Source of the DNA: Paenibacillaceae bacterium
GTDB lineage: Bacteria; Bacillota; Clostridia; Lachnospirales; Lachnospiraceae
Direction: 5' to 3'
DNA: 64,000 nt
Assembly (NCBI GenBank): GCA_015057705.1
Contig: SVDU01000024.1
Location: forward strand, 1 to 64,000
Positions 34,145 through 49,004 of this stretch are shown one piece after another (positions within the stretch are counted from its first letter, which is position 1; every line of letters starts with the position of its first letter). The notes under the pieces were generated by a model. That model did no database searches. It was not told where the DNA came from and saw only the letters and a list, made by a program, of their open reading frames with translations. Position numbers and translations under genes: made by a program.

Positions 34145-34197
34145 TGAAAAAATCCCTGCAAAAAGAGCCTTGTTGCAAAGCGCAGTGTGCAGGGATT
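34145..34197 (-). terminator. Terminator of the glycan operon
   Basis: On the minus strand AATCCCTGC (34189-34197 complement) and GCAGGGATT with a ~29-nt inner region, followed by TTTTTTC. It ends the nine-gene glycan transcript after the LCP gene. Confidence 0.8.
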
Positions 34198-34213: not shown

Positions 34214-36094
34214 TTAATTTACAGGAGGTGCAGGAACTACAACTGTATCTGTATTGCCCCCTGGAGCAGTTGCTGCTGTGGTGGGGGCGGTACCGGACTG
34301 CTGATTGGTGGGAGTTTCACCAGGGCCTGTCGTCTTTGTTTCCCCCGGGACAGCTTCCTTGGTTGTCTCTCTGGTTCCAGGTCCTGCCGATGCAGTAGTT
34401 GTCTCAGTGGTTCCTGAGGTGTTTGGTTTTGTTTCTCCCGGTTTTCCGTTTCCTTTGGTGGTTTCTGAAGGTTTGGTTTCCTTTGTGGGACCTGTGACGT
34501 TTTCAGAGCTTTCAGTAGTCTTTACTGGGTTTCCGAATTCGTCAGTGGCATTTTCAGTTTCCTCTTTGCTGGTCTCTTCTGCCTCTGTACTCTTCGTCTC
34601 CTTTACCGCCGGTTTGGTTTTGTCTCCGCCATCATATCCCTTGTCCGTGGGCACATGATCGACGCTTGTTCCCTGCTTATACATGCCGGAATCAGCCGCA
34701 ATCTTGGCACTGATCTTTTTCACCATATCGGAGGGTTCATAGCTGTCCTTGTCGAAAAGGAATTTATGCAGCTGTACCACGTTTGTTTCCAATGTCTGAG
34801 GAATTACACAGTCACCTTTTTTACCTATGTCCATATCGCCACGAGCATATGGGAAGCCGCCTGTTTCACCAATGTGATATTTACCAATATCTAATAACAG
34901 TTCAGTAAAATCACTGAATGTTAAATTAGAGCCGATCTGATCAACTTCCATAAGAAGAATTCTGTTAAGCAGTCCCAGATCCGCTTTCTTTGCCTTTTCA
35001 AAGGATTTCTGGATTACAAGGCGCTGACGCTCTGTTCTTGCAAAGTCTGTATCCATCTTTCTGAGTCTGGCATAGGCCACAGCCTGAACACCATCTAAAT
35101 GATTAAGACCTGCTGATTTTAAATGAACCGATGGAACCCCGGTTTTCTCAACAGTCTCTGTAATAAAGGAGTTGATATAACGGAATTCTGCCTTGCTGAT
35201 ATCGATATCAACACCGTCCAGCATGTTAATTCCATCTGCCACGGACTTCCAGTTAAAGGTCACATACTCCGTGACATCCAGATCCAGATTTCTGTTAATT
35301 GCTGCAAGTGCCTGGGCAGCACCGCCGTTTGCATAGGCTGCATTAATTTTATTATAAGTATTTCCTTCATTGATGTTTAAATATGTATCACGGAAAATGG
35401 ATACAATTTTTATTTCTCCAGTACCTCTGTTTATATTACAAAGCATAATAACATCGGCATTGGTTCCTTTACTTACATTGCCATCACGGCTGTCAACACC
35501 AAATACTGCGATAGTTCGATATCCCGTCATATGCTTCTTCTGATCTGCAGTCATCACTTCGTTGCGTACCTGATTTGCATTAAAATTATCGGGCTTCTGG
35601 ATGGAACCCATGAGTCTCGCCACATATGCATAGGAGAAAATAAGTGCGAGAGTAAATATTTCTGCAACTGCAAGGATTATGAATTTACGGATCCGTCTCT
35701 TTTTTTCTGTATGAGCAGCCAACCGGCTTGCTGCAACGGCCTTCTCCTGAGGAGAAATCCTTGGCTGTTGTCTGGAAGCACCGTCTCCGATCACAATATC
35801 TCTCGCAGGAGTTCTTCCTTCCTGTTTCACAGCCCGGCTTCTGCGGTTTTCCTGTTCCATGGCCGTTCTGGCCCTGTTTTCTTCCGGCTGCCTTGCACCA
35901 GACCCTTGGGGTCTGGCAGCGTCTTCCGGCCGTCTGCGTGTTGTGCCTGCCGTTGCCTGCTGTCTGCCTGCTGATGATTGTCCCTTGAACATGGGCTGCC
36001 CGCTGCTGCTGGCAGAATCTGGCTTCGAATCAGAACCGCGTCTTTCTTTTCTTGTGTTTTCACGGTTTAATTCATCATCAAAATCATTTCTCAT
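34214..36094 (-). CDS. LytR-CpsA-Psr (LCP) glycan ligase
   Basis: LCP enzymes move polyprenyl-linked wall polymers onto peptidoglycan. The 626-residue protein has a long charged cytoplasmic N-terminus (1-135, Arg/Gln/Ser rich), one membrane anchor (KFIILAVAEIFTLALIFSYA), and an LCP domain (about 190-415) with FGVDSRDGNVSKGTNADVIM, the Arg-rich IVSIFRDTYLNI and the late YARLRKMDTDFARTERQR. The tail (about 495-626) is almost only Thr, Glu, Gly, Pro and Lys, probably extended and possibly glycosylated in the wall. GAGG lies 8 nt before ATG. It is the last gene of the glycan operon, which defines its likely substrate. Confidence 0.92.
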   Translation of the reverse strand: MRNDFDDELNRENTRKERRGSDSKPDSASSSGQPMFKGQSSAGRQQATAGTTRRRPEDAARPQGSGARQPEENRARTAMEQENRRSRAVKQEGRTPARDIVIGDGASRQQPRISPQEKAVAASRLAAHTEKKRRIRKFIILAVAEIFTLALIFSYAYVARLMGSIQKPDNFNANQVRNEVMTADQKKHMTGYRTIAVFGVDSRDGNVSKGTNADVIMLCNINRGTGEIKIVSIFRDTYLNINEGNTYNKINAAYANGGAAQALAAINRNLDLDVTEYVTFNWKSVADGINMLDGVDIDISKAEFRYINSFITETVEKTGVPSVHLKSAGLNHLDGVQAVAYARLRKMDTDFARTERQRLVIQKSFEKAKKADLGLLNRILLMEVDQIGSNLTFSDFTELLLDIGKYHIGETGGFPYARGDMDIGKKGDCVIPQTLETNVVQLHKFLFDKDSYEPSDMVKKISAKIAADSGMYKQGTSVDHVPTDKGYDGGDKTKPAVKETKSTEAEETSKEETENATDEFGNPVKTTESSENVTGPTKETKPSETTKGNGKPGETKPNTSGTTETTTASAGPGTRETTKEAVPGETKTTGPGETPTNQQSGTAPTTAATAPGGNTDTVVVPAPPVN

Positions 36095-36130
36095 TTACTT
36101 ATCCTCATCCTAATTGTGTCGTATCCGATA

Positions 36131-37549
36131 TCAGTACGCATTTTTATTAATAAACCCTTTGAACATAGTTAGGAACAGGATCTTAATATCAAATCCCAGT
36201 GTCCAGTTTTCAATATAATAAAGATCATGTTCAATCCGTTTTGTAATGGAAGTGTCTCCCCGAAGCCCGTTTACCTGCGCCCAGCCTGTGATTCCGGGGC
36301 GTACCTGATGCTTAATCATGTACCTTGGGATTTCCTCTTTAAATTTTTCTACAAAAAGAGGGCGTTCCGGTCTTGGACCCACCAGACTCATATCTCCCCT
36401 TAATACATTAAGAAACTGCGGCATCTCATCGATACTGGTCTTTCTGATAAAACGCCCTACTGGGGTAACTCTGGAATCGTGTTTGGTTGTCCACTTCATT
36501 TTCTCTTCTGAAGGAGCCTGTACCACCATGGACCGGAATTTGTACATATGAAATGACCGGTTGTGAAGCCCGACTCTCTCCTGCTTATAGATAAGAGGAC
36601 CGGGAGCAGTAAGCTTGATTAATATGGCAGTAAGAAGCATAATCGGCGAAAAGACCAAAAGAGCAAAGGCTGCTCCGAATATATCTACCGCCCGTTTTAA
36701 CATGGCGTTTACCGGGTCTGTCAACGGCACACGCCGGATATTGACCACTGGAAGCCCCTGGAGGTCTTCGATGTAAGGCCTTGTTGGAATCATATTATTA
36801 TAATCAGGTATAAATTTGGTGTGAACTCCTGATTTTTCACAGGAAGCCACAATCCGTTCTAAATCCGCATATTCGCTGATGCTTAGGGTGATCGCAATTT
36901 CGTCAAGGGAATTAAGGGCAAGTATCTCATCTAAATCGCTTACCTTTCCTATGACATGGATTCCTTTAAATTCATAACCCCATTCTTTCTTATCGTCAAG
37001 AATTCCTTTGATCTGATAGCCCCATTCAGGATTCATACGCACCCGTTCAATAAAGCCTTCTGCTGCGCGGCTGTACCCAATCAGAAGAATATGCTTCTGA
37101 TTGTATCCTTTGGTGCGCATGGAATGAAGGGCCATACGGATTAAATTTCGTTCCGCTGTCTCCAATATGACATTGGCAGCAAAGAAATAGAATACCATTC
37201 TGGTTGAAAACTCACTGAAATACGGGTTTTTCTTAACCAGGAACAGACTGAGGGTAAAAAGCAGAAGCCCCAGCACGTTGGCTTTTAAGATATTAGTGAA
37301 CTCGTATCGCCTTTCCTGTACCCGCTTCGGTGCATACAGCTGGAAAATGCCGTAGAGGAGCAGATAGGTCGGCAAAATCAGGAGAAGCGCCGCAAAATAG
37401 TACTGAGGTGGCAGAACCTGCTTATAGGGACTGAATAACCAGTTGCCCAGTAAAAGAAACAGCCAGGCTATCACATAAGACAGAATTATAACCAGTCCAT
37501 CCAGTACTACATGAAACCCATTAAATTTTTTTTGATTATCTTTAATCAT
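36131..37549 (-). CDS. Polyprenyl-phosphate sugar phosphotransferase (WbaP/CpsE type)
   Basis: Starts repeat-unit assembly by placing a sugar-1-phosphate onto undecaprenyl phosphate. The 472-residue protein has four N-terminal membrane segments (about 10-125), a Rossmann-like CoA-binding domain (about 145-270, HILLIGYSRAAEGFIERVR), one more hydrophobic segment (AAFALLVFSPIMLLTAILI), and the catalytic domain with YKQERVGLHNRSFHMYKFRS, KTSIDEMPQFLNVLRGDMSL and VGPRPERPLFVE. The family's usual donors are UDP-glucose or UDP-galactose; this one cannot be told by eye. It follows the third glycosyltransferase by 98 nt and precedes the LCP gene. Confidence 0.93.
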   Translation of the reverse strand: MIKDNQKKFNGFHVVLDGLVIILSYVIAWLFLLLGNWLFSPYKQVLPPQYYFAALLLILPTYLLLYGIFQLYAPKRVQERRYEFTNILKANVLGLLLFTLSLFLVKKNPYFSEFSTRMVFYFFAANVILETAERNLIRMALHSMRTKGYNQKHILLIGYSRAAEGFIERVRMNPEWGYQIKGILDDKKEWGYEFKGIHVIGKVSDLDEILALNSLDEIAITLSISEYADLERIVASCEKSGVHTKFIPDYNNMIPTRPYIEDLQGLPVVNIRRVPLTDPVNAMLKRAVDIFGAAFALLVFSPIMLLTAILIKLTAPGPLIYKQERVGLHNRSFHMYKFRSMVVQAPSEEKMKWTTKHDSRVTPVGRFIRKTSIDEMPQFLNVLRGDMSLVGPRPERPLFVEKFKEEIPRYMIKHQVRPGITGWAQVNGLRGDTSITKRIEHDLYYIENWTLGFDIKILFLTMFKGFINKNAY

Positions 37550-37647
37550 AGCAGCAAAACCTTCCTACTTGCATGACTCCATACTCTTCCATGATAATTT
37601 CCCGTTTATTATACATGATATGTCAATATGATGCCATTAAAATATTC

Positions 37648-38637
37648 TTAAATTGACCTGTCAATTTTTAGTTTCCTTTTCATAAATTCCCAAACATAGA
37701 GAAATGTGCCCAAGATCAGCTCTCCCTCAATTCTTATATAATTGCCAAGGCGGGACATTTGAAACCTGACTTTCTTTGTTCTTTTCAAAGTTTTCAGCCC
37801 TTCCTTCACCCCTTCTATATAATCAGATGCGAAGCCAATCCGGCGGAAAAACATATATTTTACTGCCATTCCGGCCAGAATGGGAAGAAAATTCAGGATT
37901 AACTGCAACAGAGGCATGTTTTTATAATTGAGATAAAGATTGTTTCTTGCAGCCAGCTTTACTTTAAAGGAATTGTATTTGGAACCGCTGGTTCCGCTCC
38001 CCACATGGTAAACTACAGCTTTGGGGCAATACCAGTTCTCATAGCCGCAGATCTTTGCACGGTACCCCACATCGATATCCTCCAGATATGCGAAATGGTC
38101 TTCATCAAAGCCTCCGATCTTATCAAAAACTTCTCTCCGGTAGATGGCCGCGCCGGCACAGGCGGAAAATACACGGCAGGCTTTTTTATACCCGCTGCTT
38201 TTTTGTCCCACACCTCGTTGATAGGCCCAGCCCAGTACGCTGTACATATCTCCGGCATCATCCATCAGATCTTTATGGTAAAGCTGAATCATCTTACTGC
38301 TGACGGAAAATATCTTTGGTGAATTCTCGATGGCTTTTACCATCTCTTTTACGTAATCCGGCTGAGGCTCCGTATCATTGTTTAGTAGTATGACATAGGG
38401 AGTCACGGATTCACGGATCCCGATATTGACTGCACCGGAAAATCCCGTGTTCTCTTCTAAAAATATGGATGGAATCTGATGTTCTTCCAGCCATTTCACA
38501 CTGCCGTCAGTGGAGCCGTTATCCACCACAAGAAGCTCAAAGTTCTGATCACTTTGAGCTCTTAAGGCCTTAAAACAGGGTTCCATAAATTTTAATCCAT
38601 TATAATTGGGAATAATGATTGTTACTTTCTTTTGCAT
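37648..38637 (-). CDS. GT2 glycosyltransferase, rhamnosyltransferase-like
   Basis: A 329-residue GT-A enzyme. N-terminal VTIIIPNYNGLKFMEPCFKA, LLVVDNGSTDGSVKWLEE, and the metal-binding region VILLNNDTEPQPDYVKEM match WbbL/RgpB-like rhamnosyl- or related transferases; acceptor motif EDHFAYLEDIDVGYRAKICG contains the ED catalytic pair. C-terminal hydrophobic segment (LLQLILNFLPILAGMAVKYM) suggests membrane association. One base separates it from the preceding large transferase, so the two are coupled. No rml genes occur in the window, so the sugar is not certain. Confidence 0.88.
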   Translation of the reverse strand: MQKKVTIIIPNYNGLKFMEPCFKALRAQSDQNFELLVVDNGSTDGSVKWLEEHQIPSIFLEENTGFSGAVNIGIRESVTPYVILLNNDTEPQPDYVKEMVKAIENSPKIFSVSSKMIQLYHKDLMDDAGDMYSVLGWAYQRGVGQKSSGYKKACRVFSACAGAAIYRREVFDKIGGFDEDHFAYLEDIDVGYRAKICGYENWYCPKAVVYHVGSGTSGSKYNSFKVKLAARNNLYLNYKNMPLLQLILNFLPILAGMAVKYMFFRRIGFASDYIEGVKEGLKTLKRTKKVRFQMSRLGNYIRIEGELILGTFLYVWEFMKRKLKIDRSI

Positions 38638-38638
38638 C

Positions 38639-40831
38639 TTAAACCTCTAACTGATAGGGTTCCCCTATTTTTTCTTTCTTTAAATCCCTCAGTGCAAAAT
38701 TGGATTTGCGAAGAGTTAAATTGGGGTTATAGTAGGGATCACCGTCCCTTAAAATATCCGGCCATTTTTCTGAAAATTTCTTAATCTCCCAGTTGAAACG
38801 TTCCACCTTTTCTGGTGTATCCTCCAGTCCTCTGGACTTTGACTCATAATGATAGAACAGGGCATAGGGCGCGTAAACAATCAGTTTATTTAAGGAACGA
38901 ATCTTCATGCAGTAATCAATGTCATTAAATGCAACCGCCAGATCTTCGGAAAATCCTCCTACCTGATCAAACAGGGATCGTTTGCTCATCATACAGGCTG
39001 CAGTAACCGCACTGTAATTTCTTGCGCACATGGCCTGATTGAAATAGCTGCTCTCCGCCTTATGAAGACCAATAAAGGTATGGCCTGCAATTCCGCCGAA
39101 ACCAACTACCACTCCGGCATGCTGAATGGTATCATCGGAATACAGAAGCCTCACTCCTGTAATTCCCACATCTTCTCTCTGGCAGTATCCTAACATCTCT
39201 TCAATACTCTCGGGATTGATCAGTTCCGTATCGTTATTTAAGAACAAAAGGTACTCTCCCTTTGCAAAGGTAACACCAAAATTATTAATGGCAGAATAAT
39301 TGAATTCTCTTTCCCATGATACAACATGAACAAATTCAAATTCTTTCTGAATCTTCTCATAGTAAGCAAATGTTGCCGGATCCGCGCTGTTATTTTCCAC
39401 TACAATGAATTCCAGATTTTTATAAGTTGATTTTTCAATCAGGGAACGCATGCATAAATCCAGATCTGCACTGTGGTCCTTGTTTGGAATAATCACTGAT
39501 ACCAGAGGATCTCCCGTAATTTCAAATGTTGTGTGGTAGATGCCGTAGTCTATCCCCTTTTCAACAGACTTCACAGGGATTCCCAACCGGTCATAATGGG
39601 CTTTCACAGCTCTGGCACCGGCTTCAAAGGCATAAAGTTTGCTTTCCGGATTACTTGCTGTTGAATCCTGATGGCACCGCCAGTGGTAAAGTGCTTTTGG
39701 AATATGACAGATTTTCCTTGCCTTCTCTGTACAACGTAAAATAAAATCATAATCCTGAGCTCCGTCAAACTCTTCCTTAAATAATCCTACTTCCAGAAGC
39801 AGTTCATGGTTTACCACAAACAAATGACAGATATAGTTGACACTGGTTAATAAATCCGGATTGAAGTCAGGTTTGAAATGAGGCTCGAATAACTCCCCTC
39901 CGTCGATATCGAGCTTATCTTCATCAGTATAAACCACATCAATCTCAGGGTCCTGATTAATGGCCTTTACACATTCAAACAGTGCATCCGGTGCCAGAGT
40001 ATCGTCATGATCTGCGAGAACAATGAAATCACCGGTAGCCATCTCAATTGCAGCATTGGTATTGCCGGAAATGCCTTTGTTTTCTCCCAGTATCACATAA
40101 CGAAACCTTTCATCCTTCATGGCGTAGCGTTTTAATACCCGCTCCACACCTTCTCCCTTTGGACTTCCGTCAGCCACGCAGACCTCCCAGTTTGTATAGG
40201 TCTGGGCAAGAAGGGAATCAAGCATTGCGGAAAGGAAACGTTCTGGTGTTTTGTAAGCAGGTATGACAACGGAAAGTCTTGGCATATAGTCAAATACAAT
40301 CTCTCTCTGCTGTGCCAGCTCTTCCTCCGTTGTTTTTGTAAGGGATACCCATTCCGGATAATCATAATCACTGTCAATGCCCTGAAGTTTATGTCTGGAT
40401 TTAATCACGAAGGCTTTGAGTCCGTTTTCCATAAGAAAATCCATGGCAGACTGCAGGGTCTGCTTATTCATCATGCTCTTTAATTTAGCCGACTTTTTGT
40501 GAGAAGAACTGTTCTGCTTTTCAATAATATCTGCATTCAGCTTTACCGCTACTGATTTGTTTTCACATTTAATCACAAGAGTCCGGTCTTTTTTGCTGTC
40601 CCTGACATAAGGAATCCGGATATCAAATCCAAGATCTTTCTCAACCGTCTTCTTAAAATAAATCTGGCTTACATCGTCTCTGCGTACCGGTACGTATTTA
40701 AATTCCACAGGGGTATCCTGTTCGCCAAGAACCTGGAACTGTACCTCTTCTTCCGGTGTTCTTCCGATCACCCAGCCGTTAAGTACGATGGAATTGTCCC
40801 GGATCCTCATAACATCTATCTTATATTTCAT
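38639..40831 (-). CDS. Dual-domain GT2 glycosyltransferase
   Basis: A 730-residue protein with an N-terminal non-catalytic domain (1-150, SIVLNGWVIGRTPEEEVQFQ), then two GT-A domains. Domain 1 (about 185-430): LSVVIPAYKTPERFLSAMLD, the metal motif VLADHDDTLAPDALF, and a late QDYDFILRCTEKA. Domain 2 (about 445-720): VSVIIPNKDHSADLDLCMRS, LLFLNNDTELINPE, and FNDIDYCMKIRSL. Two active sites suggest that it adds two residues or builds a repeating disaccharide. It overlaps the upstream transferase by 4 nt (ATGA) and is followed at once by another GT2 gene. Confidence 0.9.
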   Translation of the reverse strand: MKYKIDVMRIRDNSIVLNGWVIGRTPEEEVQFQVLGEQDTPVEFKYVPVRRDDVSQIYFKKTVEKDLGFDIRIPYVRDSKKDRTLVIKCENKSVAVKLNADIIEKQNSSSHKKSAKLKSMMNKQTLQSAMDFLMENGLKAFVIKSRHKLQGIDSDYDYPEWVSLTKTTEEELAQQREIVFDYMPRLSVVIPAYKTPERFLSAMLDSLLAQTYTNWEVCVADGSPKGEGVERVLKRYAMKDERFRYVILGENKGISGNTNAAIEMATGDFIVLADHDDTLAPDALFECVKAINQDPEIDVVYTDEDKLDIDGGELFEPHFKPDFNPDLLTSVNYICHLFVVNHELLLEVGLFKEEFDGAQDYDFILRCTEKARKICHIPKALYHWRCHQDSTASNPESKLYAFEAGARAVKAHYDRLGIPVKSVEKGIDYGIYHTTFEITGDPLVSVIIPNKDHSADLDLCMRSLIEKSTYKNLEFIVVENNSADPATFAYYEKIQKEFEFVHVVSWEREFNYSAINNFGVTFAKGEYLLFLNNDTELINPESIEEMLGYCQREDVGITGVRLLYSDDTIQHAGVVVGFGGIAGHTFIGLHKAESSYFNQAMCARNYSAVTAACMMSKRSLFDQVGGFSEDLAVAFNDIDYCMKIRSLNKLIVYAPYALFYHYESKSRGLEDTPEKVERFNWEIKKFSEKWPDILRDGDPYYNPNLTLRKSNFALRDLKKEKIGEPYQLEV

Positions 40832-41835
40832 CTCTGATTCCCATCCTCCATGGAGGCTGCCATAAGAAGCAGATCCTCATCTGTATCTTCCTGTTTATCG
40901 CAGGTAAAATTAATCCGCTCTTCTTCAATCACAAGAGGACGTTTCATAATGCGGGCATTGATGGAAAGAATGTACTCTCCTACAAGACCGATAAAGAATA
41001 TCTGAACGGATCCTAAAAAGCACATGCCAATGAGGAGAGGTGCCATTCCAGCAGGGAAACGATCCCAGTAAATCAGCTTTAAAATCAGATAAATCAGGGC
41101 AACCATCATGCTGGCGAAGGAGCAGATGCTTCCGAAAATCGTTGCCACACGAAGTCCGACCTTGGTGTAGGAAGTAATGCTTAACATGGCTGCATCATAG
41201 AGCTTAAAAAAGTTATTGCTGGTTTTTCCCGCCCGCCGTTTGGGCTGCTCATAAGGAATTTCTTTTCTTCTGAAGCCAAGTTCTGCCACGATTCCACGAA
41301 GAAACGGAGTGGGATCATCAAGCTGTCTTAAAACGCTAATAAATGTCTTATCATAAAGTCCAAATCCGGTAAAATGTTCGATCTGCTCCACATCGGACAG
41401 TTTTTTAATCATCTTATAGTAACAGCTTCTCAGCCAGTACATGATCTTACTTTCTTTGCTGGACTTTTTAATTCCGATTACGATTTTATAGCCGTCTTCC
41501 CATTCCTTTACGTATCTGGGGATCATTTCCACCGGATCCTGAAAATCTGCCGCCATCAAAATCGTACAGTCGCCCTCCGACTGAAGCATGGCATAGTATG
41601 GGGAGTTGAACTGTCCAAAATTTTTAGCATTAAAGATTCCCTTTACCCCCTGGTCCTTTGAGCATAAATTACGAATGATCTCCCTGGTCCTGTCTGCGGA
41701 ATCATTATCAATAAAAATCAGTTCATAACGGTATTTGTTTAATTCCCTTTTAAAAACGCCTGATATTGCCTGATACATGGCTTCTACGTTTTCTTCCTCA
41801 TTATAACAGGGAACTACAATGCTTATTGTTTTCAT
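40828..41835 (-). CDS. GtrB/DPM-like polyprenyl-phosphate glycosyltransferase
   Basis: A 335-residue GT2 of the dolichyl-phosphate-mannose-synthase type that charges a polyprenyl phosphate with a sugar for use outside the membrane. Motifs: ISIVVPCYNEEENVEAMYQA, IFIDNDSADRTREIIR, MAADFQDPVEMIPRYVKE (the DQD-like metal site) and KRRAGKTSNNFFKLYDAAM. Two C-terminal membrane segments (TIFGSICSFASMMVALIYLI and LLIGMCFLGSVQIFFIGLVG) are typical. ATG at 41835 has GGGAAG 7 nt before it; an in-frame ATG at 41850 overlaps the ADH gene. A flippase or GT-C partner is not seen in the window. Confidence 0.88.
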   Translation of the reverse strand: MKTISIVVPCYNEEENVEAMYQAISGVFKRELNKYRYELIFIDNDSADRTREIIRNLCSKDQGVKGIFNAKNFGQFNSPYYAMLQSEGDCTILMAADFQDPVEMIPRYVKEWEDGYKIVIGIKKSSKESKIMYWLRSCYYKMIKKLSDVEQIEHFTGFGLYDKTFISVLRQLDDPTPFLRGIVAELGFRRKEIPYEQPKRRAGKTSNNFFKLYDAAMLSITSYTKVGLRVATIFGSICSFASMMVALIYLILKLIYWDRFPAGMAPLLIGMCFLGSVQIFFIGLVGEYILSINARIMKRPLVIEEERINFTCDKQEDTDEDLLLMAASMEDGNQR

Positions 41836-41839
41836 CTGT

Positions 41840-42907
41840 TCACTTCCCATCTGTCTTAACCATCACTTTTATTAAATCTGCAGGTTTTTCTCTCATCATC
41901 TGGAGCGCAGTCTCCACTTCATCCAGTCCATGCAGGTGATGGGTCACCAGCTTCTGGGGATTAATTCTGCCATACTGTATCATCTTTAAAAGTCGTTCAA
42001 TCCGGATTCTTCCGCCTTTTGCCAGTTCTGTATGAATGGTTTTTCCAGCCATACCCCTGCCCCCGGAAAACTTAGGGAAAGCAAGACTTCCCGTACCGCC
42101 GAAATAATTTACGTTGGAAATGGTTCCAATTCCGTACCTGGCCATATCAACAGCCTGGGTAAATACCTCATCACCGCCTCCGCAGATGATAACGCCATCA
42201 GCGCCCAGACCGCCGGTCCGTTCCATCACCTGATCAACGATATTGCCGTTTTTATAGCTTAAAACCTCTGTCGCTCCATATTCCAGGGCAAGGCTGGCAC
42301 AGACAGGTCTGGTTCCCACTGCAATGATCCGGGCTGCACCCAAATGTCTGGCGCCCTCAATGGCCATCAGACCAATGGGACCAATTCCCATAACCACCAC
42401 CGTATCGCCAAACTGAATATCTGCGTATTCCGCTCCGGTAAAACCGGTAGTCACAACGTCCACACACATCAGAGCCTGTTCCAGAGTAACTCCCTCAGGA
42501 ATCTTTGCCAGTGTGGTATCCGCATCTGGAATGAGAAAACGTTCCGCAAATACGCCGGGAATGGATCTGCCCAGCTGATGACCGGAAAACGGAGCAGATG
42601 CATGCTTATAATTCCCTTCCTGAATGCCCATGGCTCTCCAGTCAGGTGTAATTGCAGGAACTGCAACAATTTCTCCAGGCTTAAAATCTTTTACCAGATC
42701 TCCGGTTTCTAAAATCTCCGCCACACATTCATGGCCTAAAATAAGATTGGGAGCTTTTCTTGAACCTCCGCCGTAAACGGTATGAACGTCTGAGGAGCAG
42801 GGTGCCACAGCCACAGGTCTAAGAATCGCCCCATAAGGCGTAAGCTCCGGCTCTGGCGCATCATGCCAGCCCACTACTCCCGGTTCAACTAAAACAAATG
42901 CTTTCAT
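41840..42907 (-). CDS. Zinc-dependent secondary-alcohol dehydrogenase, isopropanol-dehydrogenase-like
   Basis: A 355-residue medium-chain dehydrogenase closely resembling the NADP-dependent secondary-alcohol dehydrogenases of Thermoanaerobacter and Clostridium beijerinckii: RPVAVAPCSSDVHTVYGG, NLILGHECVAEILETGDLVK, VAVPAITPDWRAMGIQEGNY, catalytic-zinc Asp in VDVVTTGFTGAEYAD, and IGPIGLMAIEGARHLGA, IIAVGTRPVCASLALEYGA. Only the catalytic-zinc ligands (Cys37, His59, Asp) are kept; the four structural-zinc cysteines are absent, as in that family. Its place inside a glycan operon, 10 nt after a methyltransferase gene, suggests a sugar or acyloin side-chain keto/alcohol substrate, which is inference. 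Confidence 0.85.
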   Translation of the reverse strand: MKAFVLVEPGVVGWHDAPEPELTPYGAILRPVAVAPCSSDVHTVYGGGSRKAPNLILGHECVAEILETGDLVKDFKPGEIVAVPAITPDWRAMGIQEGNYKHASAPFSGHQLGRSIPGVFAERFLIPDADTTLAKIPEGVTLEQALMCVDVVTTGFTGAEYADIQFGDTVVVMGIGPIGLMAIEGARHLGAARIIAVGTRPVCASLALEYGATEVLSYKNGNIVDQVMERTGGLGADGVIICGGGDEVFTQAVDMARYGIGTISNVNYFGGTGSLAFPKFSGGRGMAGKTIHTELAKGGRIRIERLLKMIQYGRINPQKLVTHHLHGLDEVETALQMMREKPADLIKVMVKTDGK

Positions 42908-42916
42908 ACTTTTTTC

Positions 42917-44107
42917 TTATATCCTTTCCAAATGATTGGATTTCAACGCTAAAATCTCCACATTCCGTCCAAATTTTTCCACAATGGATTTAGCGATCTC
43001 TTCTGTATAGCCTGGCGCCACAATTAAAATGGCATCTACCGGAACCGTAAGGAAATGATCCGGTGCCACGATAGGCAAATGGGAAGCAGGTGCAAACCGT
43101 CCCTGCTTAAAGGGTGCTGAGTCAATGATATATCTGGCAAAATTCCCGATTACCGTTGTGGATGCCAGGGTAAATCCCTGATGGCTGGCCCCCCAGATCC
43201 CAAGATTCTTTCCTTCTGATTCTAACTCATCAACCAGACGTTTCAGTTCCTCATCGATGATCACCCGGCTTTTAAGCAGACCGGAGACATCCAGTCTGTC
43301 GGGATTTTTTCTTCCCGTGTTCTCTTTTACAGTCTTTTTCTTTCTGACAATGACGGACAGAGTATCCCGGTTAACCATCTCCTCTTCAAGCACTTCAAAT
43401 CCAGCCTGATCTGCTGCAAAACGAAGCGTGTCAAAGGTGTAATAAGCGATATGATCCCGGATCAGTTCGTAGTAGCCATCGTATTCCAGAATATATTCAA
43501 GGCTGGGCACAGTAATCAGCCCCACGCCATCATCTGTTAAATTATCTGCGATGCACCGAAGCATCCCCACCGGATCCGGCTGATGTTCCAGATAGTTAAA
43601 GGACAAAAATCCATCATAAGGGCCACTGGTGCTTCCATCGGGAGATGCAAGGATCTCTCCCACCCCTGCAAACTGCTTCCAGATATTCAGTCCTTTTTCT
43701 TTTCCAAGTGAAACCAGGCTCTCCCTGTGCTCAATCCCGCATGCAGTAACGGGAAACTGGGAAAGAACGAAAAGGAATTCTCCCTGACCGCAGCCAGCCT
43801 CTATTAATTTCTTCCCTTCCAGGTGGCAGAAATCAATAAAATGCCGGTACTGGCGTTTTCTTAGCTCCACCATAGTGGTGCTGAATCCGCCTGACCGGAT
43901 AACGTCCTTATAATATGGCACAGGCTCACAATCAAACTGAACCAGACCACAGCAGCTGCACTGATGCAGATTTAAACTGATTCCCCTGTCCTCTGCCAGA
44001 TCTTCCATACCCGGGATATCCTGGGCAGAAGCCGGCATGTGATCCAGTGACATCAAAGACTGCCCATTAAGCTCCTGTCCGCATACAATACAAATCCTAT
44101 CTCTCAT
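42917..44107 (-). CDS. SAM-dependent C-methyltransferase-like protein with zinc domain
   Basis: A 396-residue protein with three parts: an N-terminal four-cysteine zinc domain (ICIVCGQEL and HQCSCCGLVQFD), a class I SAM-methyltransferase core (KLIEAGCGQGEFLFVLSQF, LSFNYLEHQPDPVGMLRCI), and a C-terminal Rossmann-like domain (LGIWGASHQGFTLASTTVIG). This is the layout of sugar C-methyltransferases such as the TylCIII/NovU type (Methyltransf_13, _11, _14). The ATG at 44107 has a distant GGAGG (12 nt); a TTG at 44131 is possible. It acts with the neighbouring epimerase and TPP enzyme on a nucleotide-sugar, by inference. Confidence 0.82.
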   Translation of the reverse strand: MRDRICIVCGQELNGQSLMSLDHMPASAQDIPGMEDLAEDRGISLNLHQCSCCGLVQFDCEPVPYYKDVIRSGGFSTTMVELRKRQYRHFIDFCHLEGKKLIEAGCGQGEFLFVLSQFPVTACGIEHRESLVSLGKEKGLNIWKQFAGVGEILASPDGSTSGPYDGFLSFNYLEHQPDPVGMLRCIADNLTDDGVGLITVPSLEYILEYDGYYELIRDHIAYYTFDTLRFAADQAGFEVLEEEMVNRDTLSVIVRKKKTVKENTGRKNPDRLDVSGLLKSRVIIDEELKRLVDELESEGKNLGIWGASHQGFTLASTTVIGNFARYIIDSAPFKQGRFAPASHLPIVAPDHFLTVPVDAILIVAPGYTEEIAKSIVEKFGRNVEILALKSNHLERI

Positions 44108-44138
44108 ACCACAAAATTTCCTCCATGTCAATCCCTTT

Positions 44139-45071
44139 TTAATAACCGCAGGTCTTCTTCACTCCCTCAGAAAAGCTTACAAGAGGGGAAAATCCTGTGT
44201 TTTTCTCCAGCTTACTAATGTCCGGAATCAGATTTGCAAGTCCCTCTGCATTGGGACGTCTTCTTCCGTAGCTGTAGCTGCCATGATATCCCATGGTTTC
44301 ATACATCTGCCGTATGTATTCCCGCAAAGGCTTTGTTTCCCGTTCCGGCGCTGCTACATTATAAATTCCGGAAACCGATTCTTTTTCCTGTTCCATTAAA
44401 AGTATCAGCGCCCGGACACAATCCTCCAGATATAAAAAATTCCACATTTGGGTGCATTCCCCAAGGGAAATGTATTCTCCTCTTCCAAATGCCCTTAAAC
44501 AGCTTTCCACCAGGGACCAGGGATGATCTCCCGGCCCGTACACGCTGAAAATCCGCGCATGGATATACTCCATGGAAGATATCCCTTCCTGCTGCCACCG
44601 GTTGGTCTTTTCTGTTGCCTGTTTTAAAAAGTCCAGCTTTGCCTTTCCGTATTCAGAAACCGGGCTGCAGTCAGTTTCCTCAGAAAGGGGGCCTTTGTGG
44701 ATTCCGTATTCCGCCTGGGAACCGCTAAAGAGAAAACGGCTACAGCCTAAACGTCTGGCTCCCTCTAATGCCTTTAAAGCGTCCACCACATTCTTCTGCT
44801 GGACTTCCTGTTTCATCCGGTTCTCACTTCCGGATCCATCCCAGCCAAAATGGTAAAAAGCCTGACAAGGTTCATCAATTATCTGATCCAGTGTATCAAG
44901 CTCACCAAGTTCCCGTTCTATTATTACCAGACCGTCTTGATTTGACGGAAGATATCTTAAATTCTCCGAACCAGGGCGAACCACCGCATATACCCTGCTG
45001 CCCTGCTTTAAAAAGCGGTTCGCCACAGCTCTTCCCAGGAAGCTGGTCGCTCCTGTTACAACAATGTTCAC
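44139..45071 (-). CDS. NAD-dependent sugar epimerase/dehydratase-family protein
   Basis: A 310-residue extended-SDR protein. NAD loop NIVVTGATSFLGRAVANRFL, YHFGWDGSGSENRMKQEVQQ, Ser/Tyr/Lys catalytic region FLFSGSQAEYGIHKGPLSEE then SEYGKAKLDFLKQA (YxxxK), and substrate region YIHARIFSVYGPGDHPW are all present. The start is probably the GTG at 45071: GGAGG lies 7 nt before it, while the in-frame ATG at 45089 is part of that ribosome site's upstream region. It lies 24 nt after the TPP gene. Likely reduces or epimerises a 4-keto or branched sugar. Confidence 0.85.
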   Translation of the reverse strand: MNIVVTGATSFLGRAVANRFLKQGSRVYAVVRPGSENLRYLPSNQDGLVIIERELGELDTLDQIIDEPCQAFYHFGWDGSGSENRMKQEVQQKNVVDALKALEGARRLGCSRFLFSGSQAEYGIHKGPLSEETDCSPVSEYGKAKLDFLKQATEKTNRWQQEGISSMEYIHARIFSVYGPGDHPWSLVESCLRAFGRGEYISLGECTQMWNFLYLEDCVRALILLMEQEKESVSGIYNVAAPERETKPLREYIRQMYETMGYHGSYSYGRRRPNAEGLANLIPDISKLEKNTGFSPLVSFSEGVKKTCGY

Positions 45072-45095
45072 CTTATTTCCTCCCTGCATAAAAAT

Positions 45096-47030
45096 CTAAT
45101 CCCTGATCCGGGGAATAATCATATTCCGGTCCATCTCTTCCTCGGAAAGGAACGGAGACAAATCCTCTAAGGGCGGAGAAACCATGGTTCCATCGGGAAG
45201 CCGCTTTGCCGCCGATTTTGGTTCAAAATTCTGATCTCTGCTGACAAAAACTTCGCAAATAACCGGTCCGTTTAAAGAAAGGGTGCGAAGGAGCGCCTGG
45301 TCAATCTCACCGTTGTGGCGGGCACTGACATAGGGATATCCGTATGCAGCAGAAAGTTTCTCCATATCGGGAAAGCTTAAATCCCTGCTGTCATCTCCGA
45401 TTCCCACAAGCGGTTCTCCAAAATAATTCTTCTGGGTCTGGCGAATGGAATGATAACCCCCGTTATTGATTACAAATATCTTAATGGGGAGGCGATGATG
45501 TATAATAGTCTGCAGCTCCTGAAGATTCATCTGGATACTTCCGTCTCCTGTTACCAGAATAATGTCTTCTCCCGGATCGCCCTTGGAAATACCAATGGCT
45601 GCAGGCAGATCATATCCCATGGAGGCTACAGCAGAATTGGAAATAAAGCGCTGGCCCGGTTTTATCACATAAGCATGACCGCCTACCACACAGGCTGATC
45701 CATTGCCAACCACGGTAATCCTGTTTTCAGGAAGACGTGAGCTCAGTTCCTTTATAAATGCATAAATGTTTACTTCCTTGTGGTCATCCTGGCTGTAATG
45801 CCTTGGAAGAACCACCGGATAGGTCTCTTTCCACATGCGGCATGTCTCATTCCAGGTAAGGGAATCAATCCCTGTTCCGCCTTGAAAGAAAGGATCTTCC
45901 CTGGTTGCCATAAATTCGTGATCCAGAAGATCTTCCATCACTGCCAGCAGATCTTTTACATCTGCATGAATCCGCATATCGGAATGTACCGATGGTTTCT
46001 TTAACTCCTCGGGATCAATATCGTTCACAATTACATAAGCCTCTCTGGCCCAGGTTGCAAAATTATATCCAACCTGACGGATACTTAAACGGCTGGCAAG
46101 GGAAAGCACCAGATCACTGTTTTGAATGGCAAAATTACCGGGACGGTCTCCCATTCCACCACCTCTTCCGGTATAAAGAGGGTGGGCATCGTAGATGCAG
46201 TCCTGGCTGTTCCAGCCGGTTACAACAGGAACTCCCAGCTTTTCTGCAACACGCATAAATGCGTCATGGGCCTGTCCGATGCGAATACCGTTACCTGCAT
46301 TAATCACGGGGCGGGAGGCTGATTTTATCTTTAAAAGAATCTCACGTACTGCATTCTTGTCCGGCTTTGGAGGCAGTATCTGACGTTTTTCTCCAAGCCC
46401 GCTCTCGTCCTCAGTTATCTTAGCATCACTGGCAGAACCCCAGCCGTCTCCCCCATTCTCATAATTTTCCGCATCAAAGCCAATGAGATCGCCGGTTTCT
46501 ACGTAAGCGCCCTGCACATTCAAAGGAATATCTAACCAGGCAGGTCCCGGACGGCCGGAATACGCAAGATAAACTGCCTTTTCCAGACAGTAACGGATTC
46601 GCATGGGATCAATCACCATCTCGTTGTATTTGGTCATGCAGTCAACTGCCTTTGTAATGTCAAATTCCTGATCTCCCATGGCACGGATTCCTACGCCGGA
46701 CCATCTGGCTGTGGTATCGTAGCGAACCTGTCCTGACAGAATCAGCATGGGAATGGAATCCAGCCAGCCGCCTAACACTCCGGTTATGGCATTGGTACCT
46801 CCTGGGCCTGTGGTCACACAGACAGCGGCAATCTGGCCCCTGATTCTGGCGTAGGATTCGGCAGCAATGGCGCATGCCTGCTCATGATGATTATAGAGAC
46901 AGGTAAGCCCTTCCTGATGTCCCAATGCATCGTTTAAATGCATGGCACCTCCTCCTGTTACCGTAAACACCTGGGAGATCCCAAGCTCCACCAGCCTCTG
47001 GGCTATATAATTGGATATTTTCATTCTCAT
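45096..47030 (-). CDS. TPP-dependent enzyme, acetolactate-synthase family
   Basis: A 644-residue ThDP enzyme. Pyrimidine-binding domain with catalytic Glu in LYNHHEQACAIAAESYARIR (about residue 51), the glycine-rich VCVTTGPGGTNAITGVLG, a central FAD/nucleotide-like domain (about 230-370), and a PP domain with GDGSIQMNLQELQTIIHH to VINNGGYHSIRQTQKNYFG. It is longer than ordinary acetolactate synthase and has an insert (about 190-230, acidic, GGDGWGSASDAKITEDESG). No small regulatory subunit, ilvC or ilvD is near. Its partners (epimerase, C-methyltransferase, ADH) resemble those of YerE-type enzymes that add a two-carbon branch to a sugar. Confidence 0.85.
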   Translation of the reverse strand: MRMKISNYIAQRLVELGISQVFTVTGGGAMHLNDALGHQEGLTCLYNHHEQACAIAAESYARIRGQIAAVCVTTGPGGTNAITGVLGGWLDSIPMLILSGQVRYDTTARWSGVGIRAMGDQEFDITKAVDCMTKYNEMVIDPMRIRYCLEKAVYLAYSGRPGPAWLDIPLNVQGAYVETGDLIGFDAENYENGGDGWGSASDAKITEDESGLGEKRQILPPKPDKNAVREILLKIKSASRPVINAGNGIRIGQAHDAFMRVAEKLGVPVVTGWNSQDCIYDAHPLYTGRGGGMGDRPGNFAIQNSDLVLSLASRLSIRQVGYNFATWAREAYVIVNDIDPEELKKPSVHSDMRIHADVKDLLAVMEDLLDHEFMATREDPFFQGGTGIDSLTWNETCRMWKETYPVVLPRHYSQDDHKEVNIYAFIKELSSRLPENRITVVGNGSACVVGGHAYVIKPGQRFISNSAVASMGYDLPAAIGISKGDPGEDIILVTGDGSIQMNLQELQTIIHHRLPIKIFVINNGGYHSIRQTQKNYFGEPLVGIGDDSRDLSFPDMEKLSAAYGYPYVSARHNGEIDQALLRTLSLNGPVICEVFVSRDQNFEPKSAAKRLPDGTMVSPPLEDLSPFLSEEEMDRNMIIPRIRD

Positions 47031-47427
47031 GTTATTTTCTCCTTTATTAAGGAATGGTAATTATCTGTCTGTGATTATACCACACCGTACTTTATTTTCC
47101 TATTAAAGTTTTCTTACTTTCTAAAAGCTTCCATTTTTCCAAGAAACAGGCTTTCTTTGGCAACTTTACCAGTTATGTGCCGTTTGTTTCCCCGCTCCGC
47201 CTTATTTTACAGGCAACTGCCGGTGCTCTCTTGGTTACAGCGTTCTGGCACATTCCGGGTAACCCCTGCCTGTCAGCAACTTTTCTCCTGTTCTGTTAGC
47301 TCCTTCCATATCTGCCATCAAACCACACTTTCATTGTTCCTTTCATTTACGTTATAATCGCAGAGTAATGCAACTATGGATTTTCGGCCACGATAAAACT
47401 TACTGCAAAAAAGGAGAGAACATATTT
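47031..47427. promoter_or_regulatory. Divergent promoter region, glycan operon / wall-binding protein
   Basis: This ~400-nt gap has no gene. On the minus strand an extended -10 TGGTATAAT (TATAAT at 47074-47079) lies 44 nt before the TPP gene; its -35 is not recognisable. On the plus strand TATAAT at 47353-47358 lies 70 nt before the secreted protein gene, with only a weak TTCATT at -35. The middle (47110-47330) is C/T-rich on the plus strand with no clear hairpin or riboswitch. Weak -35 boxes hint at activator control. Confidence 0.6.
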
Positions 47428-48774
47428 ATGAAAAAGCAAATCAAATTGATGGCTGTATTATCCGCTGCCGGTATTTTAACTGCAGCTGCCCCACAGATGG
47501 GCATCTTAAACACAGCCTCTACTGTCTATGCCAAGGCAACTGGCTGGGTAGAAGAAAACGGTACATGGAAATTCTATGAGGAGGGTGATTACTTCGCCAC
47601 TGATTCCTGGAAGAAGTACGGAGAAGACTGGTATTACTTAAATGAGGATGGCGAAATCGCTGTTGGTCAGAAAGTTGATGAGTACTATGTAGACGAGAGC
47701 GGAAAGAGAGTATCCAATTTCTGGGTTTCTGTTACCAATGACAGCTACTGGGACTCCCCTGATTCACCGGAAAATTACTGGCATTATTATGGAAAAGACG
47801 GAAAAGAAGTCGTTTCCAAATGGCAGAAGATCAACAACAACTGGTATTATTTTGACGAACAGGGTCAGATGCTTACTGGCAAGGTAGAAATCGCTGGTTC
47901 TACTTATTACCTGGGTAACGAAAACGACGGCGCACAGAAAACAGGCTGGTTTGAGCTTGAAAGTGCGAAAGAAGATTCCGATCATACACGTGCTTGGTAT
48001 TATTTTGACAAAGACGGCGTTATGGTTAAAGATCAGGTAGATAAAAAAATTAACGGTTCCTACTTCACCTTTGTAAATGGCGAAATGCAGACCGGCTGGT
48101 ACAAACTTCCTGTAACAGCAACTCCTTCAGAAGCGGCCGAAAATACTGACAACAAGACTTCCGCAGCAGGCTATCAGTACTATGATGAGAGCGGTGCAAG
48201 AGTCGAGGGCTGGAGAGAAATCGAAGGCATCGAGGGCATTAGCGCAGAAGGCGAACAGCACTGGTTCTTCTTTAAAAACGGTGCTCCTTACTTTGCGAAA
48301 AAGGGTATTGAATTATTCACTGTAAACTCCCAGAAATATGGATTTAATACAAAAGGTGAAATGCAGACCGGTCTTAAGGTTGTTAATCTGGAAGACGGTA
48401 ATACTGCAAACTTCTATTTCGCAGACAACGGCGTGATCAACACTGGAAAACAGTCCATTATGAACGAAGATTCAGGTGAGAACGAGATTTGGTACTTTGT
48501 AACTTCCGGAAGCAAAAAAGGTCAGGGCTTCCACGGTATTCTTGACGATACTCTTTACGAGTATGGTTTAAGAAAACAGGCAGATGCGGATTTAAGAGTT
48601 GCAGCATTCGCTCTTAACGGCAAAAACTATCTGGTGAATACCAACGGTGTTCTTCAGAAAGCTTCCTCCACATCTAAGTCCACAGCAAAACCAGAGCTTG
48701 GCGCAGGCTTCAGAGATTTCAAAGACACCAATGAAAAAGTTTATGTTGTTGATGTAAATGGTATTATTCAGTAA
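47428..48774 (+). CDS. Secreted protein with choline-binding-type wall repeats
   Basis: A 448-residue exported protein with a signal peptide (MKKQIKLMAVLSAAGILTAA, cleavage near VYAKA) and then almost only cell-wall-binding repeats of the CW_binding_1 kind: WVEENGTWKFYEEGDYFATD, WKKYGEDWYYLNEDGEIAVG, WQKINNNWYYFDEQGQMLTG, TGWFELES, and others about every 20-25 residues. No separate catalytic domain is seen, so it may be a structural wall protein or a carrier. ATG at 47428 has AAAGGAGAG upstream; a longer in-frame start is not needed. Own promoter and terminator. Confidence 0.88.
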   Translation: MKKQIKLMAVLSAAGILTAAAPQMGILNTASTVYAKATGWVEENGTWKFYEEGDYFATDSWKKYGEDWYYLNEDGEIAVGQKVDEYYVDESGKRVSNFWVSVTNDSYWDSPDSPENYWHYYGKDGKEVVSKWQKINNNWYYFDEQGQMLTGKVEIAGSTYYLGNENDGAQKTGWFELESAKEDSDHTRAWYYFDKDGVMVKDQVDKKINGSYFTFVNGEMQTGWYKLPVTATPSEAAENTDNKTSAAGYQYYDESGARVEGWREIEGIEGISAEGEQHWFFFKNGAPYFAKKGIELFTVNSQKYGFNTKGEMQTGLKVVNLEDGNTANFYFADNGVINTGKQSIMNEDSGENEIWYFVTSGSKKGQGFHGILDDTLYEYGLRKQADADLRVAAFALNGKNYLVNTNGVLQKASSTSKSTAKPELGAGFRDFKDTNEKVYVVDVNGIIQ

Positions 48775-48813: not shown

Positions 48814-48848
48814 AAAAAGCCCGCAGTGTAACAGCTGCGGGCTTTTAT
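48814..48848 (+). terminator. Terminator of the wall-binding protein gene
   Basis: AAAAAGCCCGCAG (48814-48826) and CTGCGGGCTTTT (48835-48846) with an 8-nt loop, then ATTTG on the plus strand. Confidence 0.9.
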
Positions 48849-49004
48849 TTGTTTTTAACAATTAAAAGAGTTATAACTATACAAAATGCCTAAATAGTAA
48901 TTTTTTTTATCGATATTTCTGTTTTTGCGTTATATTTTTGTCGATTTAACGTTATACATATAGGAGTAGATTGTTTATCAATCTATAATAAAAGGAGGAG
49001 ACCA

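Follow-up and report, generated by a model that had tools for sequence, protein, structure and literature searches.

A conserved glycan operon in a Lacrimispora-like Lachnospiraceae genome, with enzymes that may finish a yersiniose-like, C-methylated sugar

What is made by an operon in which a thiamine pyrophosphate (TPP)-dependent enzyme, an extended short-chain dehydrogenase/reductase (SDR), a C-methyltransferase (CMT) and a secondary-alcohol dehydrogenase (ADH) stand before a set of glycosyltransferases and a wall ligase? This question is raised by the stretch of 64,000 nucleotides analysed here (the window), which is the start of one contig (SVDU01000024.1) of a 4.53-Mb genome (GCA_015057705.1). 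Its nine-gene operon encodes these four enzymes, three GT2 glycosyltransferases (GT2c, GT2b and GT2a), an initiating transferase (PGT) and an LCP-family ligase. We propose, with a probability of about 0.7, that the operon finishes and uses a yersiniose-like, C-methylated cytidine diphosphate (CDP)-sugar, loaded on undecaprenyl phosphate for an LCP-attached polymer; the sugar, its donor, the order of the steps and the export of the product are what we infer from the genes described below.

In the proposed pathway, the products of rfbF, rfbG and rfbH, whose families are recognised on another contig, would make CDP-4-keto-3,6-dideoxyglucose. The TPP enzyme would then decarboxylate a 2-keto acid, probably pyruvate, and add the acyl unit to C4 of this sugar, a step proposed because of its family, its neighbourhood and its co-occurrence with rfbH. 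The SDR, joined in this lineage by CMT and ADH, would tailor the product: CMT would methylate a carbon next to a ketone, on either the ring or the branch, and a reductase would convert a ketone to an alcohol, presumably in that order, to give the yersiniose-like C-methylated sugar. By homology, GT2c would load this sugar onto undecaprenyl phosphate, and PGT, GT2a and GT2b would assemble a repeat unit into a polymer that LCP attaches to the wall. The tailoring would differ in relatives, in which a second SDR (SDR2) takes the place of ADH, or CMT and its reductase are absent, the TPP gene and the other operon genes staying in place.

The TPP enzyme and its CDP-sugar supply

Among solved structures, the TPP enzyme (45096..47030 on the minus strand, which carries all operon features given below) scored best against JanthE (8rph; 393 bits), followed by 5ahk (189 bits), presumably PpYerE, whose score is hardly higher than that of a plant acetolactate synthase (187 bits). 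In a phylogenetic analysis of 18 sequences, rooted on IolD and for which the program gave a long-branch warning, the TPP family, of three-domain architecture according to Pfam, joined JanthE (98/99) and then 5ahk (87/99), and the two IlvB-like proteins of the same genome and the plant enzyme fell outside this group. The score against TIGR00118, which describes biosynthetic acetolactate synthase, was 302.7 bits, below the cut-off of 538.35. Together, these results ruled out that the enzyme is an IlvB, and the comparison with YerE and acetolactate synthase that the original prediction had suggested places it next to the YerE-like JanthE and not with biosynthetic IlvB. JanthE is presented in a passage of PMC12188165 as a YerE-like flavin adenine dinucleotide (FAD) enzyme of Janthinobacterium that couples 2-keto acids to ketones, and YerE, in a passage of a 2025 review (PMC12247030), as an enzyme whose substrate, CDP-3,6-dideoxy-4-keto-D-glucose, receives activated acetaldehyde.

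We compared the window with 80 loci, the best 80 of at least 569 confirmed relatives, some of them near-copies. The alignment of the TPP enzyme comprises 79 rows, from the window and 78 of these loci (L046 and L065 have no row). The catalytic glutamate (Glu50) is kept in all 79, and the thiamine diphosphate-binding GDG motif in 77, the other two having GEG. The equivalent of JanthE Lys567 is likewise kept in all rows and that of Tyr297 in 69, with a phenylalanine in the other 10 (JanthE numbers being taken as the chain number minus one). The donor might also be a longer or hydroxylated 2-keto acid, and the same CDP-sugar would then bear a long branch like that of erwiniose or caryophyllose: according to a passage of PMC12247030, ErwE and MMAR_2332 prefer such 2-keto acids and JanthE accepts long donors, but none of the nine genes was recognised as one that would supply a donor of this kind, and we regard this variant as rather unlikely. 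A TPP paralogue with a near-equal TPP-domain score was considered as a second branched-sugar enzyme and rejected, as it is IolD-like and lies in an inositol operon (contig C6; L012 8734-10665), a setting judged by eye from its open reading frame (ORF) neighbours.

The original prediction had found no deoxythymidine diphosphate- or CDP-sugar genes in the window. None was recognised in the operon, and such genes do lie elsewhere in the genome: the genome search that it proposed for a nucleotidyltransferase and a 4,6-dehydratase found both on contig C2, where rfbF, rfbG and rfbH stand side by side together with a LicD protein gene and another glycosyltransferase gene, all three over their NCBIfam equivalog cut-offs (rfbF 389.3 against 300.25, rfbG 440.0 against 278.45 and rfbH 726.4 against 423). 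RfbF, RfbG and RfbH lead to CDP-3,6-dideoxy-4-keto-D-glucose. Across 150 genomes of the family, a TPP match at E ≤1e-100, representing the enzyme or a relative, was found in 41 and rfbH, at the same limit, in 56; rfbH was present in 40 of the 41 TPP-positive genomes versus 16 of the 109 TPP-negative ones (Fisher p 3e-22, uncorrected for relatedness), and in 15 of the 40 genomes with both, the two genes lie at most 10 kb apart. In 7 of the 80 loci rfb genes adjoin TPP, with matches at 22.8 to 26% identity in L020, L055, L057 and L088 excluded as distant relatives; rfbF, rfbG and rfbH follow in order in six of them, and in the seventh, L085, a short contig, rfbH precedes TPP and an rfbG-like gene lies between TPP and SDR. 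Only 6 of 398 genomes of a phylum-wide sample, the window's own included, were positive for TPP at 1e-90, and the gene is therefore mainly a feature of Lachnospiraceae; no plasmid-borne relative was found by tblastn (E up to 1e-60) among 72,556 plasmid records.

These data also bear on whether the TPP enzyme yields a free acyloin or an acetolactate-like metabolite, the glycan genes being mere neighbours. Such a role would fit the ADH, whose isopropanol/secondary-alcohol dehydrogenase family acts on small ketones, but it leaves aside the presence of rfbH in nearly all TPP-positive genomes, the adjoining rfb genes, the two IlvB-like proteins encoded elsewhere in the genome and the replacement of ADH by a sugar-type SDR in 22 of the 80 loci; we consider it very improbable. 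The branched sugar that had been deduced from the operon is thus supported by a YerE-like TPP enzyme, by rfbFGH in the same genome and by the co-occurrence with rfbH.

A constant core and a swappable cassette

The nine-gene minus-strand run from the TPP enzyme to the LCP ligase, from 47030 down to 34214, was confirmed, all ORFs being present with Pfam and NCBIfam domains that fit their names. The nearest named relatives by the TPP gene are Lacrimispora defluvii (99%) and L. xylanisolvens (98%), and the genome is that of a Lacrimispora-like Lachnospiraceae. Two metagenome-assembled genomes titled Paenibacillaceae (L016 and L017), whose cluster contains a TPP gene 97% identical to the window's, are probably wrongly titled. 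Gene order is identical in the nine nearest ADH-type loci (L014-L021 and L035; TPP 78-99% identical), of which the contig of L016 stops short of LCP, and the arrangement is therefore not due to chance. The coordinates give gaps of 6 bp between TPP and SDR, 7 bp between SDR and CMT and 9 bp between CMT and ADH, overlaps of 11 bp between ADH and GT2c and 4 bp between GT2c and GT2b, and gaps of 1 bp from GT2b to GT2a, 98 bp from GT2a to PGT and 36 bp from PGT to LCP.

GT2c, at more than 50% identity, lies downstream of TPP in 72 of the 80 loci, and what separates the two genes varies. SDR-CMT-ADH is found in 24 loci, or 26 counting L027 and L041, which have further ORFs, SDR-CMT-SDR2 in 22 and an SDR alone in another 22, with single cases of SDR-CMT without a second reductase (L065) and of an SDR with an rfbG-like gene (L085). 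Of the 49 loci with both CMT and GT2c, 48 thus have a second reductase. GT2b, GT2a and PGT are all present in 61 of the 72 GT2c loci. Of the eight loci lacking GT2c, L069 pairs CMT with a second SDR, L071 stops shortly after CMT, and L037, L040, L050 and L059 show no CMT match. L082 and L089 are oral Lachnoanaerobaculum-type loci with TPP-SDR-CMT and neither an adjoining GtrB-like gene nor a second reductase.

The original prediction had treated the four small-molecule enzymes as a set. This holds for TPP and SDR, which stay together with GT2c, GT2b, GT2a and PGT in 61 of the 80 loci, but not for CMT and ADH, which are replaced or absent in many; the four enzymes are therefore a core pair and a swappable pair, and the core of the operon is formed by TPP, an SDR and the GtrB-type undecaprenyl-phosphate glycosyltransferase. 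On a TPP tree obtained with a quick method (79 rows, of which 68 were labelled and 11 not counted), the three cassette states (ADH, SDR2 and none) require 11 changes, and the well-supported branches force at least 5 changes for ADH, 6 for none and 5 for SDR2, each taken singly. The cassette has thus repeatedly been acquired, exchanged or lost.

The SDR that follows TPP (44139..45089; PF01370, 115.6 bits; best solved relative MoeE5, 1.2e-17) is proposed, from its family, to be a ketoreductase or an epimerase of the branched sugar. The second SDRs cluster by themselves, with 64% mean identity among themselves and 38% to the first SDRs of CMT loci, and on the SDR tree the labels first and second need 2 changes. 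In 15 of the 22 SDR-only loci the SDR is of the window's first kind, being up to 47-71% identical to one; in the others (L081, L083, L084, L088, L090, L091 and L093) and in L085 it is at most 38% identical to either kind, and across the most distant loci the SDR is thus no longer a single constant gene. At 10-12 kb in L081, compared with its sister L080, the whole stretch from TPP to GT2c differs, L080 having a window-type SDR-CMT-SDR2 and L081 a single SDR at most 37% identical to those of CMT loci.

CMT (42917..44131) contains Methyltransf_23 (PF13489) and Methyltransf_14 (PF08484, C-methyltransferase C-terminal; 55.2 bits, cut-off 23.5) domains, and its best solved relatives are TcaB9, mycarose 3-C-methyltransferase and a sugar 3-C-methyltransferase. 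Enzymes of the TcaB9/mycarose 3-C-methyltransferase type methylate the carbon beside a sugar ketone. The TTG start at 44131 is probably 8 codons too early, because an ATG stands at that distance downstream. ADH (41840..42907) is a zinc alcohol dehydrogenase by its domains, and its best solved relatives are NADP (nicotinamide adenine dinucleotide phosphate)-dependent alcohol dehydrogenases, matched over residues 1-350 of 355 (2.8e-113), and reduction of the methyl ketone of an acetyl branch would suit this family. The composition of the cassette would also allow two sugars from the same CDP-4-keto precursor, a yersiniose-like one made by TPP and SDR and a separate 3,6-dideoxyhexose methylated at C3 by CMT and reduced at C4 by ADH or SDR2. 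The action of the solved CMT relatives on 4-keto nucleoside diphosphate sugars and the joint occurrence of CMT and a second reductase speak for this scheme, but an additional sugar would be expected to require a further transferase, and loci with and without the cassette share the same recognised glycosyltransferases, which makes it unlikely.

GT2c, the reductase type and the wall polymer

GT2c (40828..41850) aligns over residues 8-308 of 340 to residues 27-325 of sll0501 (5eke; 8.9e-46), which we take to be GtrB, with ArnC-type entries next. The match spans the catalytic and membrane parts of GtrB/ArnC polyprenyl-phosphate glycosyltransferases, and this likeness leads us to expect that GT2c transfers a sugar to undecaprenyl phosphate. 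We compared gene trees for the loci having all six core genes (59 rows): the three cassette labels required 7 changes on the GT2c tree, 9 on that of SDR, 10 on that of TPP and 11 on each of those of GT2b, GT2a and PGT. When pairs of loci were binned by the identity of GT2b, GT2a and PGT as a background, GT2c identity in ADH-SDR2 pairs stayed at 71-74% at any background, versus 73-86% in ADH-ADH and 79-87% in SDR2-SDR2 pairs, the contrast between pair classes being small in the two lowest bins. The pattern was retained in residual identities, for which each gene was left out of its own background. The same- minus different-class residual over the three classes was 4.34 points for GT2c, 1.69 for SDR, 0.63 for TPP, 0.25 for PGT, -0.18 for GT2a and -0.21 for GT2b, values reached, with relatedness uncorrected, in 0, 0, 0, 10, 246 and 240 of 300 label shuffles, respectively. 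When only ADH and SDR2 rows were considered, it was 7.06 for GT2c and 1.9 for SDR, and lay between -0.61 and 0.6 for TPP, GT2b, GT2a and PGT. As an example, the window and L021 (ADH) share 86% identity in GT2c, 78% in TPP and 87% in PGT, versus 71%, 76% and 84% with L023 (SDR2). Tree changes and residuals agree, so GT2c varies with the reductase type and not with the presence of the cassette.

Read together, these patterns offer a tentative view, which we hold at less than even odds, of a surface-variation system of Lachnospiraceae in which a constant wall-polymer operon receives a branched-sugar finishing module swapped between species. The unrelated ADH and SDR2 might give opposite configurations of the branch carbinol, each working with CMT and with a variant of the undecaprenyl-phosphate transferase specific to it, and the products would be undescribed C-methylated yersiniose-type sugars.

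The remaining genes point to a polymer. PGT (36131..37549), a WcaJ-type initiating undecaprenyl-phosphate sugar-phosphate transferase (TIGR03023, 501.8 bits, cut-off 410.75), and LCP (34214..36094; PF03816, 109.4 bits, and over the TIGR00350 cut-off) provide an initiating transferase and a wall ligase within the operon; between PGT and GT2c lie GT2b (38639..40831), a two-domain enzyme with two PF00535 stretches, and GT2a (37648..38637; PF00535, 105.9 bits). Attachment of the polymer to the wall is suggested by homology, namely that of LCP and of the GtrB-type enzyme. Polysacc_synt matches are found on other contigs of the genome. In L080 and L084 the genes form a compact cluster, rfbF-rfbG-rfbH-GtrA-TPP-SDR-GT2c-PMT_2 membrane transferase, with CMT-SDR2 after SDR in L080; L080-type GtrA is found in 4 of the 80 loci and the L080-type PMT_2 transferase in 2. 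A GtrA/GtrC pair was sought near the window's operon and not found, GtrA lying on contig C26 and a PMT_2 protein on contig C21 among other genes.

Several observations weigh against the pathway proposed here. JanthE V121, Y268 and P293 correspond to D, M and R in the window's TPP enzyme. In many of the 41 TPP-positive genomes the match has only 43-57% identity and covers just a portion of the query, and these genomes perhaps contain other YerE-like enzymes; genome G138 has a TPP match without one for rfbH. Of the seven rfb-adjacent loci, L080 alone combines CMT and a second reductase with a window-type SDR; in the other six, the SDR is at most 38% identical to any of a CMT locus. L082 and L089 have CMT with no adjoining second reductase. 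The usual reductase partner of RfbH (E1) is of the FAD_binding_6 plus Fer2 type. No FAD_binding_6 protein was matched in the window's genome (the control matched in 8 of 14 genomes) and its four Fer2 matches are all in other proteins, and another electron donor must therefore be assumed. No flippase, polymerase, GtrC-like gene or ABC exporter was recognised by Pfam among the nine genes, the sole GtrA of the genome over the cut-off is the one on C26, and a search without a positive control found no homologue of the L080 membrane glycosyltransferase in this genome. As for GT2c, the distinction between cassette and none requires 7 changes on its tree versus 5 on that of TPP, identity across this divide at high background is 86.0% (8 pairs) and 85.4% (7 pairs), and cassette-against-none pairs show no GT2c deficit (residual 0.22); ADH and GT2c may also have been transferred together, and physical linkage alone could explain part of the covariation.

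Upstream of TPP, a promoter-like block (about 47070..47120) is common to the window and nine aligned relatives; it ends in GTGTGGTATAAT (TATACT in two Hungatella), and its -35 side does not look canonical. The single terminator predicted at the end of the operon corresponds to a weak terminator-like hairpin after LCP (34167..34181), but the scan gave 22 sites in the stretch where shuffled sequences gave 14.2 on average; single sites therefore mean little, and this one is indistinguishable from chance. A riboswitch before TPP was sought and rejected, Rfam giving only a sub-threshold Thr_leader match (48814-48885, minus strand; 30.9 bits, gathering threshold 55), which is most likely a terminator hairpin. 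A choline-binding-repeat protein is encoded divergently on the upstream side (47368-48774, plus strand), and on contig C2 a LicD protein gene adjoins rfbFGH; phosphocholine or a similar phospho-group may be attached to a polymer of this organism. Downstream of the operon lie genes for an HtrA-like protease and a ClpX-like ATPase, named by eye from their ORFs.

Comparison with known systems

The reading proposed here would place a YerE-type pathway in a conserved glycan operon that includes a wall ligase, in a family of which many members live in the gut, and the prediction is that commensals carry an unusual sugar that immune receptors and phages could read. The operon family offers new ketone-accepting TPP enzymes, a swap of the cassette between species may change the sugar, and strain pairs that differ in the finishing cassette are natural material for testing ketoreduction, a step of the yersiniose pathway called uncharacterised in a passage from 2016 (PMC4753412), and its stereochemistry. 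The same source, in the part consulted, places YerE-type and other C4-branched octoses in Gram-negative polysaccharides and Gram-positive antibiotics, to which a passage of the 2025 review (PMC12247030) adds the YerE-like enzymes of two mycobacteria. We found no description of such a sugar or operon in Lachnospiraceae in the titles and abstracts returned by our searches of open-licence papers. What this analysis adds is the rfbFGH supply, the GtrB-type enzyme and a swappable cassette with whose reductase type GT2c varies.

Taken enzyme by enzyme, the closest solved sequence to the TPP enzyme is JanthE, with 218 of 578 aligned positions identical, the same C-terminal SPPLEDLSP stretch and the equivalents of Lys567 and Tyr297 retained; it differs in having GDG where JanthE has CDG and in the replacement of Val121, Tyr268 and Pro293. 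CMT aligns with the TylC3/TcaB9 sugar 3-C-methyltransferases over residues 13-381 of 404, with Methyltransf_14 over its cut-off, but the match reaches only about 60 bits and the substrate here would be a CDP-sugar. ADH matches the CbADH/TbADH-type secondary-alcohol (isopropanol) dehydrogenases over nearly its full length (2.8e-113), yet sits in a glycan operon beside a C-methyltransferase. As in the GtrA-GtrB-GtrC glycan-modifying systems, GT2c is GtrB-like, and GtrA and a PMT_2 transferase occur in the L080 and L084 clusters; in contrast, the window's operon lacks both and has PGT, GT2a, GT2b and LCP. With the yersiniose pathway of YerE it shares the rfbF-G-H precursor genes, a single-chain TPP carboligase and an adjoining SDR; it differs in that the rfb genes are unlinked in its genome, in that an LCP ligase and a GtrB-type transferase stand in place of an O-antigen cluster, and in the addition of CMT and a swappable reductase.

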